A DNA stretch of 64,000 nucleotides from the NCBI GenBank assembly GCA_028681335.1, contig JAQUIT010000007.1, positions 85,990 through 149,989 on the forward strand, in the 5' to 3' direction. The stretch comes from Desulfuromonadaceae bacterium. Its GTDB lineage: Bacteria > Desulfobacterota > Desulfuromonadia > Geobacterales > Pseudopelobacteraceae. Positions 57,987-64,000 of this stretch are shown piece by piece. Under the pieces are notes generated by a model that saw only the letters and a list, made by a program, of their open reading frames with translations, ran no database searches and was not told the origin of the DNA. Numbering within the stretch: position 1 is the stretch's first letter; every line of letters starts with the position of its first letter. The translations under genes were made by a program, and so were the position numbers.

Positions 57987-59042
57987 GTGCTCGCAAAGGT
58001 TTTCAGCAGTGCCCTGATCGGTATAGATGCCATTCTGGTGGATGTAGAAGTTGATATTGCCCCTGGCCTCCCCGCCTTTGCTACCGTCGGTCTGCCGGAT
58101 GGCGCGGTCAAGGAGAGCAAGGATCGTGTCAAGGCGGCGCTGAAGAATTCCGGTTATGATTTCCCCCCGCGGCGCATCACCGCCAACCTGGCGCCGGCTG
58201 ATATCAAGAAGGAGGGGACCGCCTACGACCTGCCGATCTCGATCGGCATCCTCGCCGCCACTGGTGTTGTCAAGGGGCCGCGAGTGCACGACTACATCCT
58301 GCTGGGGGAGTTATCGCTGGATGGCGGGCTCAAGGCGATTCGAGGCGCGCTGTCGATGGCGGTAGCCGCCAAGCGTGCCGGTCTGGCCGGCCTGATCCTG
58401 CCGGCGGAAAACGCCCCCGAAGCGGCTGTTGTCGAGGGGATTGATATCATCGGCGCCACCTCTCTCTCCCAGGTGGTGGAGTTTCTGAGCGGCCGCGAGC
58501 TCATCGAGCCGTTCCGGGTTGATCTGCCGGGGCTATTTTCAAGTAACAGCGAATATGGTGAGGATTTCAGCGAGGTCAAGGGGCAGGAACATGCCAAGCG
58601 TGCCCTGGAAGTGGCCGCCAGTGGGGGGCATAACATCCTGATGATCGGCCCTCCAGGTTCGGGAAAAACCATGATTGCCCGCCGTATCCCGACAATCCTC
58701 CCCCAGATGTCCTTTGATGAAGCGATTGAAACCACCAAAATATTCAGTGTCAGCGGCATGCTGGAGAAAGAGCGGGCGCTGCTGGCGGTACGCCCCTTCA
58801 GGTCACCGCATCACACGATCTCCGATGTTGGTCTGATCGGCGGCGGCACAACTCCGAAGCCGGGTGAAGTCTCTCTTGCGCACAACGGTGTGCTGTTTCT
58901 GGATGAACTTCCCGAGTTCAAGAAAAACGTTCTCGAAGTCCTCAGGCAGCCGATTGAAGACGGCAAAGTCACCATCTCCCGCTCGCTCCTGTCACTGACC
59001 TATCCGGCCAGGGTCATGCTGGTGGCGGCGATGAACCCCTGG
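57987..59042 (+). pseudogene. comM: Mg-chelatase-like comM/yifB gene, truncated by an integrated element
   Basis: [61 protein letters not shown]...MLVAAMNP then abrupt loss of family similarity where MNPCPCG would be expected. Confidence 0.85.
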
Positions 59043-60516
59043 AGATGTGTGAACCTTTCTCTACTGGCGCGAACGAAGGGATATAAAAGAAGACAAAATG
59101 AAGGGAATCCTCGCCGACATCAATCCTCTCGACAAGTTCTTTCACGACTTGCTGCCTAGCCTCATAACTCAACGATGGCCACAGTGACGCCAGCGTAGTT
59201 GCTCTCTCGATTACATACGACTTGCCAATCTCATTTGTTTTGATGAAATCAATCTCTGCCTGCAGACGGGGGATCTCCAGGGTAATGTTGTCAAGCCTGG
59301 TCTTGATCGGATCATATCTTTCTTTGAACCCGTTTTGATCAAGAACCTGCTTACCGTACAAGTCGATTAAAACATCAACTTTCCCGTTTACTTCCTTCTG
59401 CTCTTTCTTCAGCAGTTCAAGCCTCTCCTGCTTTTCCACCAATTCATTTTCCAGATCTTCGTTGGCACCAAGCTGTTCAGGTGCGACAACCACCTCCTTC
59501 AAGGCATTCTGGAAGTTCTCCTCGATGATGTCCTCGTTGATTCTCATTCCACATTTCTTGCAAGCATAACGGGGAATCTTCATCGACGGATATGGAGCAA
59601 CGTACAGTTTTTCTCCGCACTGGCATTTCAATATTCCTGAAAACAAAAACCTTCCAACCTTTGGAACCGATTTGAATGATGTGTATCGTCGAGCAGTCTC
59701 CTCAAAGATTTTATTCGCTGCGTCCCAGTCCTCTTCCGACACCAGCGGTTGCACGTTGGTATAGACCCAATCTGACTCCGGTTTCAGCACCCAATTCTTC
59801 TTGTTACCAAGACTCTTTGCGTAGTTGGCTCTGCGTATGCCCTTGTAGATTGTATCCGAGAGAAGCCGCTTGAGAGATGTCGGCCTGTAAACCTTCTTGC
59901 TCCTTGAATAGAGCCCTTCATCTTTGAGTTGATTACAGGTGGTGAGCAGCTTGCCGGTTTCAAGGAATATTTGGTATGCCCTTTTGACGACTGGAGCTTC
60001 ATCCGGATTGGGAACGATCTTTCCATCAACCCAGTGATAACCGAAGGCCCCCTTTCCACCAGTATTCTTTCCCAACTTTGCCCTGATAGGAATTGATGCT
60101 GCGACACGGGCAGAGATCTCCTCACGCTCCCACTGAGCCAATGCGCCGATAACGGTATAGAGGAGTCTGCCGGCAGGAGAGGACGTGTCAATACTCTCTT
60201 CAAGGCTTACGAGTGCAGCGTCGTGCTTTTGGAAGTAGTCGGAGATTTCTAGGAGTTGTTTGGTGTTGCGGGCAAGGCGAGCAAGTTTTGAGAAGATAAG
60301 AGCCTGTATTCGACCAGCGGCTACATCATCAAGCATTCTCTTGGCTTCGGGATTGTCAAGGACATCCTTGCCTGAAACGCCTGACAGATCATACAAGTCT
60401 ACTATGTTCCATCTCTTGAGTTCTGCATACATTCTAGCACGGGCTTCATGATTCTTTGGCGATTCTCCCCGCGCCTGGTCTTCTGTTGATACCCTTATCC
60501 ATATCCCAACGTTCAT
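59014..60516 (-). CDS. Large serine recombinase (site-specific integrase)
   Basis: [88 protein letters not shown]; zinc-ribbon [15 protein letters not shown]; coiled coil. Confidence 0.95.
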
Positions 60517-60530
60517 CCCGTCATTCCTGT

Positions 60531-61232
60531 CTAAATCACCCCGCCGGCCCAAACCACCCTACCGACGATCTTAAGATTTAACGCCTCTTCCCCATGCAGA
60601 ATTTCAGGCTCGTATAGGGTGTTATCGCTTCGGATCACAACAGAGCCGTCATACTTCTTCTGAAGACGCTTCACAAGTAAGGCATCGTCGTATTGCACAA
60701 CGTATATAGCGCCATCTTCAACCTTCGACGTCCGGACATCGATTAAGATTAGATCGCCGTTGCTCAGGGTAGGCTCCATGCTATCGCCTTGAACTGAAAT
60801 GAGTGCCAGAAAATCCCTGGGGATTCCCAACACATTTTTTACCCACTCCGTCTTGAAATACAAGTGATCTACAATCTGTTCGCTATGAATAATTGCACCT
60901 CCTCCAGCACTGGCCTTGACCTCGTAACGAGGAACCCGGACGTAGCCATCAGCCTCCGAGACAAGTCCATTGTCACGGCACACGGTCGGAAGAGAACTAT
61001 CATCTGAGAAAATCCACTGCAAATTGATGTTATGCCTGATACACAATTTGATGATTTTATCGTACGGGACTGTTCCCCGCTTTTTCCAGGTTCCAAGCAG
61101 CCTTGGGTCGCTTTCTAGCGCTTTTGCGACATCCGTATCATTCTTCAGATCAAGGGCTTTTTTCAGCTTTTCGATGATAGATTCGATCAAATTATCATCA
61201 TTATGCAGATTTTGGCTTGACATGGTTTTCAT
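60531..61232 (-). CDS. CI-like repressor: phage CI-type HTH plus S24/LexA peptidase domain
   Basis: IIEKLKKALDLKNDTDVAKALESDPRLLGTWKKRGTVPYDKIIKLCIRHNINLQWIF; LISVQGDSMEPTLSNGDLILIDVRTSKVEDGAIYVVQYDDALLVKRLQKKYDG. Confidence 0.92.
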   Translation of the reverse strand: MKTMSSQNLHNDDNLIESIIEKLKKALDLKNDTDVAKALESDPRLLGTWKKRGTVPYDKIIKLCIRHNINLQWIFSDDSSLPTVCRDNGLVSEADGYVRVPRYEVKASAGGGAIIHSEQIVDHLYFKTEWVKNVLGIPRDFLALISVQGDSMEPTLSNGDLILIDVRTSKVEDGAIYVVQYDDALLVKRLQKKYDGSVVIRSDNTLYEPEILHGEEALNLKIVGRVVWAGGVI

Positions 61233-61253
61233 CCTTATGCAACAATAATCATC

Positions 61254-61448
61254 ATGATGAGGAAAGCGCTTAAAATAAAGGTCCTGATGATGCAGAAAGG
61301 AATATCAGGATCACATATCGCTAAAAAAGCAGGGGTACATCGTACTGCGGTCTATCACGTAATCAGCGGCAGAGCAAAATCACAACGTCTGCAAAGGCTG
61401 ATTGCCAAAGAATTAGGTTGGCCATTTGATGCACTCTGGGCCGATTGA
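61254..61448 (+). CDS. Small Cro-like HTH regulator
   Basis: MMRKALKIKVLMMQKGISGSHIAKKAGVHRTAVYHVISGRAKSQRLQRLIAKELGWPFDALWAD; divergent from repressor. Confidence 0.85.
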   Translation: MMRKALKIKVLMMQKGISGSHIAKKAGVHRTAVYHVISGRAKSQRLQRLIAKELGWPFDALWAD

Positions 61449-61575
61449 TGATATTTGCAAACGGTTTATCGTCTATATGGAACAGACAATCGTCATTTAC
61501 TCATCATTTATAGCATACGTATTTAATATTTTCATCAAAATGTTTAGTTAATCTTCTGTTTGTTGCGAGTAGGCC

Positions 61576-61749
61576 GTGAAGGTAACCATCGAATACAGAA
61601 AATCTCCAGACCCTGAAGCCAGGTTTGATCGTGTGATGGATATTATCCGTCGGGACCTCGAACGCCAGGCCTTTGTGCGTGAAACCGAACATATTAGAGT
61701 TTCACCGGCACCACCTCCGCGATCCCGGGAGGTGGCCATTGCAACATAA
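61576..61749 (+). CDS. Small hypothetical protein (57 aa, GTG start)
   Basis: MKVTIEYRKSPDPEARFDRVMDIIRRDLERQAFVRETEHIRVSPAPPPRSREVAIAT; not in the provided track. Confidence 0.45.
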   Translation: MKVTIEYRKSPDPEARFDRVMDIIRRDLERQAFVRETEHIRVSPAPPPRSREVAIAT

Positions 61750-62578
61750 TAGACTCCAACACAGAGCAAGTTCAGTTGACGATAGAAGCGGCGTTGATTC
61801 GTTCGAACGCATTCTTGAAAGCCTCGCAGCGAGACCAAAGTATCTTCCAGAGTGGCCTGATACTCAAAGAGCAATGCCGAATGAAATCCTTCGTTCGGCA
61901 CTTTTCAATTGCCGGAACCGTAATCAAGCTCGTCTCTTCATGAAGGACGCAGAAATAGCTGTGATCGGAGACGGCCAGGTAATTTATCGCGGAGAGGAAC
62001 TGCGCCAGGATGATGAACTTGTCTGGTTGCACCTGATGCACCTGGCAAAAAAGACCCATCTTGGCGATTGCATCGACTTCACCCCCTATTCTTTCATCAA
62101 AATGCTTGGCTGGCCCATCAAGGGCCAAAGCTACGACCGACTCCGTGTCTGCTTGAGCAGGATGCAGGCTACAGCAATCCGCTTCCAATCAAAACGCCTT
62201 GATACCTTCATCAGTGTTTCTCTGATCCTTAAGTTCAGATCCAGAAACGATAACAATGAAAATCTATCCCGATGGGAAGTCTGGGTTGGCGAGGAAATGC
62301 GCCTCCTATTTGACGAAGAGTTCCTGACGAGGGTGAACTGGGAAACGAGGCGAGCGCTCCCAGACGGCATCGCATCCAAGTTGTTTGGTTACTGGTCAAG
62401 TCATCGGAAACCTTTCCCGGTAAAGGCTGAGACTCTCATCAAGCTGTGCGGTTCCGAAATGGAGCTGAGGCATTTCCGTATCGAATTGAGAAAAGCGCTC
62501 GATGTTCTCGTGAAAGTGAGTTTCCTCGAATCCTGGGAGGTCAAGGATGACCTGGTTACCGTCGCACGGAGGCATTGA
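61673..62578 (+). CDS. trfA: TrfA-family plasmid replication initiator (start uncertain)
   Basis: WPDTQRAMPNEILRSALFNCRNRNQARLFMKDAEIAVIGDGQVIYRGEELRQDDELVWLHLMHLAKKTHLGDCIDFTPYSFIKMLGWPIKGQSYDRLRVCLSRMQATAI...FGYWSSHRKPFPVKAETLIKLCGS matches IncP TrfA from memory. Confidence 0.88.
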   Translation: MCVKPNILEFHRHHLRDPGRWPLQHNRLQHRASSVDDRSGVDSFERILESLAARPKYLPEWPDTQRAMPNEILRSALFNCRNRNQARLFMKDAEIAVIGDGQVIYRGEELRQDDELVWLHLMHLAKKTHLGDCIDFTPYSFIKMLGWPIKGQSYDRLRVCLSRMQATAIRFQSKRLDTFISVSLILKFRSRNDNNENLSRWEVWVGEEMRLLFDEEFLTRVNWETRRALPDGIASKLFGYWSSHRKPFPVKAETLIKLCGSEMELRHFRIELRKALDVLVKVSFLESWEVKDDLVTVARRH

Positions 62579-62729
62579 CCTATGACTTACCAAGTATTGA
62601 CTTATGACCGGCGAACTACTGACTTTTGACCGACAAAGTATAGACCTAAGCCCTACAGGTACTGACTTTTGACCGGCAAACCTATTGACTTTAGACCGGC
62701 AGAACTATTGACCTTTGGCCGACAAGCAC
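62574..62729 (+). repeat. Seven tandem iterons of 21-23 bp, consensus AYTGACTTWTGACCGGCRAACT (candidate replication origin)
   Basis: Units start at 62574, 62596, 62618, 62640, 62661, 62684, 62707; first one overlaps the trfA stop codon. Confidence 0.88.
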
Positions 62730-62766
62730 ATCGGAAATTCGTTTTGCAGCACGCGATGTTACAGAG

Positions 62767-62775
62767 TTTTCCACA
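62767..62775 (+). promoter_or_regulatory. DnaA box (TTTTCCACA), followed by T-rich TAACCTT repeats (candidate DUE) bounded by CCCCTAA...TTAGGGG at 62778-62815
   Basis: Matches TTWTNCACA; downstream ctaaccttcttttaaccttttataacc. Confidence 0.65.
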
Positions 62776-62840
62776 ACCCCCTAACCTTCTTTTAACCTTT
62801 TATAACCATTAGGGGCTTAAAAACATCAAGGAGGACCCCC

Positions 62841-63170
62841 ATGAACTGCCCAGTTCCTGATGACGCTGTGACAATTGTCATCGCTTATTTACGTCAGCAA
62901 GGACTCACCATTACCCATACCGGAAATGCATACCGCCTCGATGAAGGCTTGCCGAACATCAATGTCGTCATCAAGGCATTCCGTGATCAAACCATCAGCA
63001 TTGCTGAAGACGGTACCATTCATCTTTTTGGCATCTACCTTCCTTCAGGATGGGACACCGTGAGAATCAGGAGAAAGGTTGAAGATCATCTTCGGAAGAT
63101 CTCCTCTACAGAGGAAATTATCCGTATCGCTTCATGCTTGGGAGTAAGACTTTCTGAAACCGTAAAGTGA
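62841..63170 (+). CDS. Hypothetical protein of the integrated element
   Basis: 109-aa ORF with aaggagg RBS upstream. Confidence 0.7.
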   Translation: MNCPVPDDAVTIVIAYLRQQGLTITHTGNAYRLDEGLPNINVVIKAFRDQTISIAEDGTIHLFGIYLPSGWDTVRIRRKVEDHLRKISSTEEIIRIASCLGVRLSETVK

Positions 63171-63171
63171 T

Positions 63172-63299
63172 CCGGGAACACCCGGTCTCCAGTCGTAGTA
63201 CGACAACCTAATAGCACAGATTCAATCTGGCACGGCCGGGCACTTCAATGTGCTGGCAAAGCCGGTCTACGGAGAAAACTTCCGTGACCGGCTTTTTTT
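63172..63299 (+). ncRNA. Putative structured RNA/leader: five consecutive hairpins ending in an intrinsic terminator
   Basis: CCGGG-aaca-CCCGG (63172-63185); GTCGT-agt-ACGAC (63192-63204); CAGAT-tca-ATCTG (63217-63229); GCC(G)GGCAC-N6-GTGCTGGC (63235-63257); AAAGCCGGTC...GACCGGCTTTTTTT (63258-63299). Confidence 0.45.
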
Positions 63300-63316
63300 G
63301 TTTGAGCGGAGGTCAC

Positions 63317-63961
63317 ATGGATTTCTTCAAGGCAATGCAATGGGTGCAGGACAACGAACCCACGATCAAGAGCAAGATCAGGCAGTATCGGAAATTCACC
63401 CCCTATGAAATGTGCGACTTTCAGCAAGAGGCATACGAGGCTGCATTCGTCGCGGTTCTCCGCAGTCAGGAGAAGAATATCCCGTTCGAGGCTGCCTTCT
63501 GGACCACATTCCGGAACAAGATCAGCGTTCTGACTCCCGACCCTAACTTCACCCATGGGTCCAATTCGATTCCTTCGCATATCTGTTATGGCGACATTGA
63601 GGCAGTCGAACAGACGATTCACGGGAGTGATGATGGTGCTGATATCGAGGCGATCTTCGAGGCTATTTCCCACCACTTGACGGAAAAGGAAAGGGAAACC
63701 CTGTCTCTCTCCCTGGGGGTAGCGGAACAAGGGAAACTATCCACCTACGAGATCGCTGAACTTTACGGCTGCTCGGATTTTAATGTCCGTGACACTTTGA
63801 AAAGGGCGTTCAGACGGATAAAGCAGCTCGCAGACAACGGAACCATAGTCGTTGACCGCATGAGGCTCGTGACTCAAAAACACCGGGACATAATGTCTGG
63901 CTGTGTAGCCACTCAGGACTTCACGCATTTGGGTTTCTCGGCAAGAAGCCCGCCTTCATGA
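63317..63961 (+). CDS. Sigma-70-like (ECF-type) factor or sigma-like regulator
   Basis: YRKFTPYEMCDFQQEAYEAAFVAVLRS (region 2-like) and LTEKERETLSLSLGVAEQGKLSTYEIAELYGCSDFNVRDTLKRAFRRIKQL (region 4-like HTH); RBS gcggagg. Confidence 0.65.
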   Translation: MDFFKAMQWVQDNEPTIKSKIRQYRKFTPYEMCDFQQEAYEAAFVAVLRSQEKNIPFEAAFWTTFRNKISVLTPDPNFTHGSNSIPSHICYGDIEAVEQTIHGSDDGADIEAIFEAISHHLTEKERETLSLSLGVAEQGKLSTYEIAELYGCSDFNVRDTLKRAFRRIKQLADNGTIVVDRMRLVTQKHRDIMSGCVATQDFTHLGFSARSPPS

Positions 63962-64000
63962 TCGAAACACTTCACGGCAACAGCAACCGATTATTACAAC

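Follow-up and report, generated by a model that had tools for sequence, protein, structure and literature searches.

The question raised by this locus is what has broken the comM gene near the right end of a 64,000-nucleotide stretch (hereafter the window) of a Desulfuromonadaceae bacterium genome (GenBank assembly GCA_028681335.1; 4.0 Mb in 40 contigs), and how the intruding DNA entered and might leave again. The window covers positions 85,990 to 149,989 of contig JAQUIT010000007.1 (C39:85990-149989 in our labels, where G, C, and L denote genomes, contigs, and loci). The break is caused by a mobile element whose reconstructed attachment site, attP, lies within its own serine recombinase gene, which we regard as the most unusual part of the element. 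We put at roughly 0.75 the probability that this is an integrative conjugative element (ICE) of ∼100 kb (112 kb in a sister genome, G015) that enters a fixed comM codon by means of a serine recombinase, carries a TrfA replicon, and bears a recombinase tail that reports the integration state.

A mobile element at a fixed comM codon

The features at the left junction and the open reading frame (ORF) for the helix-turn-helix (HTH) tail at the far end are as follows.

57987–59041, + strand: comM 5′ part (PF01078/PF13541), broken at the codon after MNP (the window's comM ends ...AAMNP)
59040–59041, unstranded: attL crossover dinucleotide TG, inside CCCCTG, placed by attL/attR comparison
59042–59065, unstranded: element-side arm of attL (the right arm of attP), matching the attR arm as an inverted repeat at 20 of 24 positions
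59014–60552, − strand: large serine recombinase in its integrated-state form (PF00239, E = 2.8e-30; PF07508, E = 1.1e-18)
C33:10852–11334, − strand: HTH-tail ORF, in frame with the recombinase through attP

The break falls in the Mg-chelatase/AAA domain of ComM, where PF01078 aligned only up to position 165 of 207. A preliminary description of the window had proposed an integrated element here and had predicted that attR and the comM 3′ half would lie beyond its right edge; both were found, and an outcome named there as fatal to the idea, a missing comM 3′ fragment, does not apply. The 3′ half (Mg_chelatase_C) lies at C33:11336-11816 and is the sole such match in the window's genome, and in G015 a single contig holds both halves. 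The two junctions read ATGAACCCC-TG-GAGATGTGTGAACCTTTCTCTAC (attL) and GTAGAGAAAGGTTAACACACCCC-TG-CCCCTGCGGC (attR). Rejoining the chromosomal flanks at TG restores an intact comM, MNPCPCGYLSDP, and in three genomes (G005, G010, and G021) comM is unbroken and the same site is empty. Joining the element sides instead yields a palindromic attP with arms that agree at 20 of 24 positions, compared with 16 or fewer in 20,000 random pairs. Because G025 has the chromosomal CCA|TG at attL and the element's CCC|TG at attR, the crossover can be placed at TG. Recombinases with identities down to 41% are likewise inserted at the same comM codon. The element therefore has the site-specific recombinase and flanking att sites by which an ICE is recognized.

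attP within the recombinase gene and its in-frame tail

The Pfam matches confirm the large serine recombinase that the preliminary description had placed at the comM junction. Its start is likely the ATG near 60516, and its codons below 59042 are comM DNA. The enzyme belongs to the CcrB/TP901 class (TP901-1-like, CcrB-like) and shows the Resolvase and Recombinase domains and the palindromic attP with 2-bp core of large serine recombinases, its Zn ribbon scoring below that profile's own cut-off. Elsewhere in the window's genome, a 58%-identical serine recombinase adjoins rpsI (ribosomal protein S9; C18:8496-9983, locus L006), with its own stop and no tail.

When the reconstructed attP is read along the minus strand, the recombinase ORF meets no stop codon at the core and runs on in frame, for 666 codons altogether. 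The circular form would thus encode a recombinase of ∼660 amino acids with a C-terminal tandem HTH tail of ∼150, while the integrated copy encodes ∼510 amino acids plus a few comM-derived residues, the tail staying behind at attR. Since attP lies within the recombinase gene, integration cuts a conserved DNA-binding tail off the recombinase; the gene is split on integration, and the enzyme is a serine rather than a tyrosine recombinase. In the AlphaFold model of the tail, the first ∼30 residues are disordered (a linker) and are followed by two four-helix HTH units (pLDDT, the model's per-residue confidence score, 85), which resemble P22 c2 and 434 repressor domains with weak E-values and a probability of 1.0. 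Searches of the tail in plasmids and phages gave no match, and none of the plasmid records listed for the joined recombinase–tail protein had a match that extended into the tail.

The same in-frame fusion is found in G015 (three att sites), G003, G025, G006, G121, G122, G125 (three sites), G138, and G116, and with diverged recombinases in G053, G022, G076, G360, G169, G398, G478, G166, and G306. With the window's own clade counted once, the fusion is in frame in 10 of 10 lineages (42–100% identity, across the phylum), the other two frames being closed nearby; the probability of such phase conservation by chance is ∼3^-9. The att palindromes are wholly different between lineages (e.g., GGCAACGCATATA-TG-TGAATGCGTTGCC in G022), so that a conserved DNA site does not account for the frame. 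Tail and recombinase also co-diverge (Mantel r = 0.60, p = 0.001; one pair per lineage, n = 10). Across 26 tails, the ∼24 leading codons show no codon-position bias; further on the bias is strong, and it sets in before the first in-frame Met. At one G003 attR the tail is cut to 28 codons.

Replicon, transfer genes, and cargo

Inward of the recombinase, the window holds the following features.

60531–61232, − strand: S24/CI-type repressor (PF00717, 5.3e-22; PF07022, 3.1e-9)
61254–61448, + strand: small divergent HTH (Cro-like) ORF (HTH_3, E = 2.3e-4, just below the curated cut-off)
61673–62578, + strand: TrfA-family replication initiator (PF07042, E = 3.7e-51; exact start uncertain)
62569–62727, + strand: six iterons, direct repeats of ∼22–23 bp with core TGACTTTTGACCGGC and RK2-like pattern TGACNNTTGANNGGC
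62767–62775, + strand: DnaA-box-like TTTTCCACA, assigned by sequence, then AT-rich DNA to ∼62830
62841–63170, + strand: conserved 109-aa protein of unknown family, a backbone gene (51–100% identity in relatives)
63248–63961, + strand: sigma-70 region-4-like regulator (Sigma70_r4, 22.1 bits, cut-off 24.1; TIGR02937, 41.7 bits, cut-off 42.9)

The repressor and the TrfA initiator with iterons and DnaA box, as first described, are upheld by these matches. The Cro-like and sigma-like ORFs named alongside them are present, but their profile scores fall just under the curated cut-offs; the former is 97–98% identical in relatives, and the latter is syntenic there.

The window's TrfA is distantly related to its IncP counterpart: it matches 615 plasmid records, the best of them at 51% (Methylomagnum), and had no match among solved structures or phage records. 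Six copies of the iteron were found, compared with two or fewer in shuffled sequence. All six match the IncP pattern with 0–3 mismatches (three or fewer matches in shuffles), though the exact letters differ from IncP; the IncP sequence compared was a record picked up through its iterons. The element shares with IncP-1 (RK2) the TrfA family, iterons fitting the pattern at 22–23-bp spacing, a DnaA-like box, and an AT-rich region, but the iteron letters are TGACACTTGAGGGGC in IncP-1 and the transfer system there is MPF_T (MPF, mating-pair formation) rather than the MPF_F found here. The earlier label "IncP-type" therefore holds for the initiator family and iteron motif and not beyond them, given the 51% plasmid match and F-type transfer.

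Relatives retain the iteron array, with trfA 95–100% identical, and the order of TrfA, iterons, and DnaA-like box is common to them. In G033, TrfA is only 50% identical, the box has diverged, and ∼8 repeats stand in a different layout with the same core and order. The same TrfA occurs at 95–100% identity in Geobacteraceae/Desulfuromonadaceae metagenome-assembled genomes and in Trichlorobacter thiogenes ATCC BAA-34, where it also adjoins the comM recombinase; in Geomobilimonas luticola JCM 17780 the best segment is 99% identical. These named relatives assign the window's genome to the Geobacterales. Within the order, a TrfA was found in 35 of 141 genomes, in 12 of which it lies within a few kilobases of a comM recombinase (G000, G003, G014, G015, G025, G033, G067, G116, G121, G122, G125, and G138); these 12 span six genera and two families.

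From this arrangement we infer that the excised element would replicate autonomously via TrfA and its iterons. In SGI1, which has the order rep, iterons, DnaA box, deleting either part abolishes replication (PMC7433901), and yicC-specific SGI1-like islands carry TrfA (PF07042) (PMC8409611). Because TrfA in integrative islands has already been reported, the pairing is less unusual than the preliminary description had claimed. Those islands likewise combine integration, their own rep, and an iteron and DnaA-box origin directly 3′ of it, but they are mobilized by IncC helper plasmids and target trmE and yicC (PMC7433901, PMC8409611), whereas the present element has a complete F-type type IV secretion system (T4SS), a serine recombinase, and comM as its target.

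In G015, att cores near C15:602183, 489732, 465173, and 460782 delimit an ICE of 112.4 kb; two islands (24.6 and 4.4 kb) come next, and the second of them runs up to the comM 3′ half. The window's copy, of ∼100 kb, follows the contig order C39 tail, C26, a gap of ∼4.2 kb (estimated from G015), C38 (62 kb), and C33; a 127-bp assembly overlap joins the C39 tail to C26, and G015 carries tra genes where the C26–C38 gap falls. At L004 ∼2337–2690, a 127-bp exact duplication around a run of Ns is a scaffolding artefact, beyond which lies an ABC-F-like ATPase gene missing in G015.

The search for T4SS or capsid genes beyond the junction returned mating-pair and coupling proteins (TraE, TraK, TraB [TrbI-like], TraN, TraU, TrbC, S26 peptidase, TraG, TraH, TraF, and TraD families) and no capsid, portal, or terminase gene among the element proteins scanned. 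Of the kinds first suggested, "ICE/IME or phage-plasmid" (IME, integrative mobilizable element), the ICE is borne out by attR, the comM 3′ half, and the T4SS genes, and the phage-plasmid, lacking capsid genes among the genes examined, is not supported. The T4SS is F-type and not P-type (MPF_T), which rules out an integrated IncP plasmid. We conclude that the sequence supports an ICE in comM with a TrfA/iteron replicon. Its closest TraC relatives are on Geobacter anodireducens pSD (54.5%) and a 202-kb Pelobacter propionicus plasmid (53%), which share with it an HD-domain protein adjoining TraD (33 and 32%), a candidate relaxase; these plasmids differ in not being integrated, and neither is among the TrfA matches listed. 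The element also encodes SSB, a PD-(D/E)XK nuclease, an SLT transglycosylase, HipA, and a ParM-like protein, and its cargo includes phosphorothioation (Ssp) defence, with SspABCD scanned in the window's own copy and SspFGH in G015. Loci L046 and L005 (C33), in the right part, hold xseA/xseB (exonuclease VII subunits), a DNA/RNA non-specific nuclease-like protein, and an exonuclease-domain protein. Where the element's umuC region is interrupted in the window's genome (L005 [C33]:2812-3615, together with C33:1-1868 and C38:60563-62027), there is a second initiator (RepA_C, 9.8e-28) along with DNA of foreign appearance, as if a small plasmid had entered the ICE; the segment C33:1869-2719 has the opposite orientation to that in G015.

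Proposed cycle, rival explanations, and stacked islands

In the cycle we propose, the S24 repressor would keep the recombinase and trfA off until SOS-type cleavage induces both. The truncated, tailless recombinase would excise the element, and excision would restore the full-length recombinase–tail gene; TrfA and DnaA would copy the circle, so that it is maintained and can be transferred, and the tailed recombinase would then work on attP × attB in the recipient. The tail would signal the state of the element and bias or license one direction of recombination, an integration-state switch inferred from the gene arrangement. We favor the option that the tail aids integration or blocks excision, giving a self-resetting cycle; alternatively, it might act as a directionality factor and keep the circle unintegrated, a state that would be fitting for an element that brings its own replicon. 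That a C-terminal partner can set direction is indicated by an engineered serine integrase fused to a C-terminal recombination directionality factor (RDF), in which attL × attR was activated and attP × attB reduced (PMC5737554). The present case would share that effect of a C-terminal partner but is a natural, conserved fusion whose presence is tied to the integration state, and its tail is not among the known RDFs.

Several observations weigh against this account. The element in the window's genome is split over four contigs with a gap, and no relaxase family (Pfam/NCBIfam) or oriT, the origin of transfer, was recognized among the element proteins scanned. The tailless relative beside rpsI indicates that the wider recombinase family does not need the tail. 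The ∼24 codons that follow the core lack protein-level constraint, so separate translation of the tail is possible in principle. Finally, excision is not observed, since neither attP nor an uninterrupted fusion gene was present in any assembly searched (for attP, the 141 genomes of the order), although such absence is no test of excision.

The HTH tail could instead be an independent gene at the element's right end, the absent recombinase stop being incidental because comM always supplies one. This would fit the GTG or ATG at the core in several lineages, the unbiased first ∼24 codons, and the tails retained by many recombinase-less islands in arrays, but the phase is kept in every lineage, the start codon is not conserved (G022 and G076 lack ATG or GTG at the core), the circle has no stop between recombinase and tail, and the promoter would need to be antisense in comM; we consider it unlikely. 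Still less probable is a decayed, immobile island in which trfA and the iterons are vestiges of a plasmid that was captured and has since lost replication. The excised form was not found in assemblies, the window's copy has the RepA segment in its umuC region, and Geomobilimonas luticola has lost the recombinase–CI end, yet the ORFs are intact, 99%-identical recombinases are common to several species and genera, trfA (95–100%) and the iterons are kept, with iteron motif and order retained in G033 at 50% TrfA identity, and one att-bounded 6.85-kb segment is duplicated in tandem at 98.7% identity. A phage-plasmid or prophage, suggested by the CI/Cro-like pair adjoining the integrase, is very improbable, as TrfA and the tail match no phage record and conjugation genes stand in place of capsid/terminase genes.

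Of the 141 genomes of the order, 40 carry the tail, with as many as seven copies on one strand in a single genome; genomes from outside the order have it next to a comM C-half at 13 loci. Recombinases 99% identical occur in different species and genera and carry tails just 67–92% identical, a pattern that tail exchange by recombination among stacked sites would produce. The duplicated segment, in G003, consists of two adjacent att-bounded copies. Tandem island stacks resembling the staphylococcal cassette chromosome occupy comM at G003:C45, G042:C1, G048:C11, G120:C64, and G125:C1, each island ending in an att site and HTH tail; stacked comM islands are mostly without their own recombinase. 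In Geomobilimonas luticola (L066, 7880-8005) the comM core runs directly into the element at a point corresponding to window position 61793; the region of recombinase, CI, and Cro-like ORF is gone, and comM carries another insertion farther forward. More tentatively, and at somewhat short of even odds, these data may reflect a phylum-wide family of comM elements that uses the gene split as a switch (tailed in the circle, tailless when integrated), the tail setting direction without or alongside a separate directionality factor and being exchanged between stacked islands.

ICEs, TrfA replicons, comM insertions (PMC4774983), and split tyrosine integrases (PMC5495485) are already known. In SSV1/pTN3-type archaeal integrases, attP lies inside the integrase gene and integration splits it (PMC5495485), but these are tyrosine recombinases and the enzyme itself is disrupted, whereas here the catalytic part is kept and only an accessory HTH tail is lost. 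Mobile elements inserted in comM, a conserved integration target, impair transformation (PMC4774983); those insertions are in Gammaproteobacteria and use another integrase, with no split recombinase described. In the open-access literature searched, we found no account of attP lying within the gene of a serine recombinase that has a conserved HTH tail.

A natural, conserved serine recombinase with one protein form in the integrated element and another in the circle would give the element a built-in marker of whether it is integrated or free, and two natural forms of one gene would make the direction choice of serine recombinases directly testable. The data also reveal, across the phylum, a family of stacked comM islands that couples conjugation, plasmid-type replication, and phage defence with the loss of a transformation gene.

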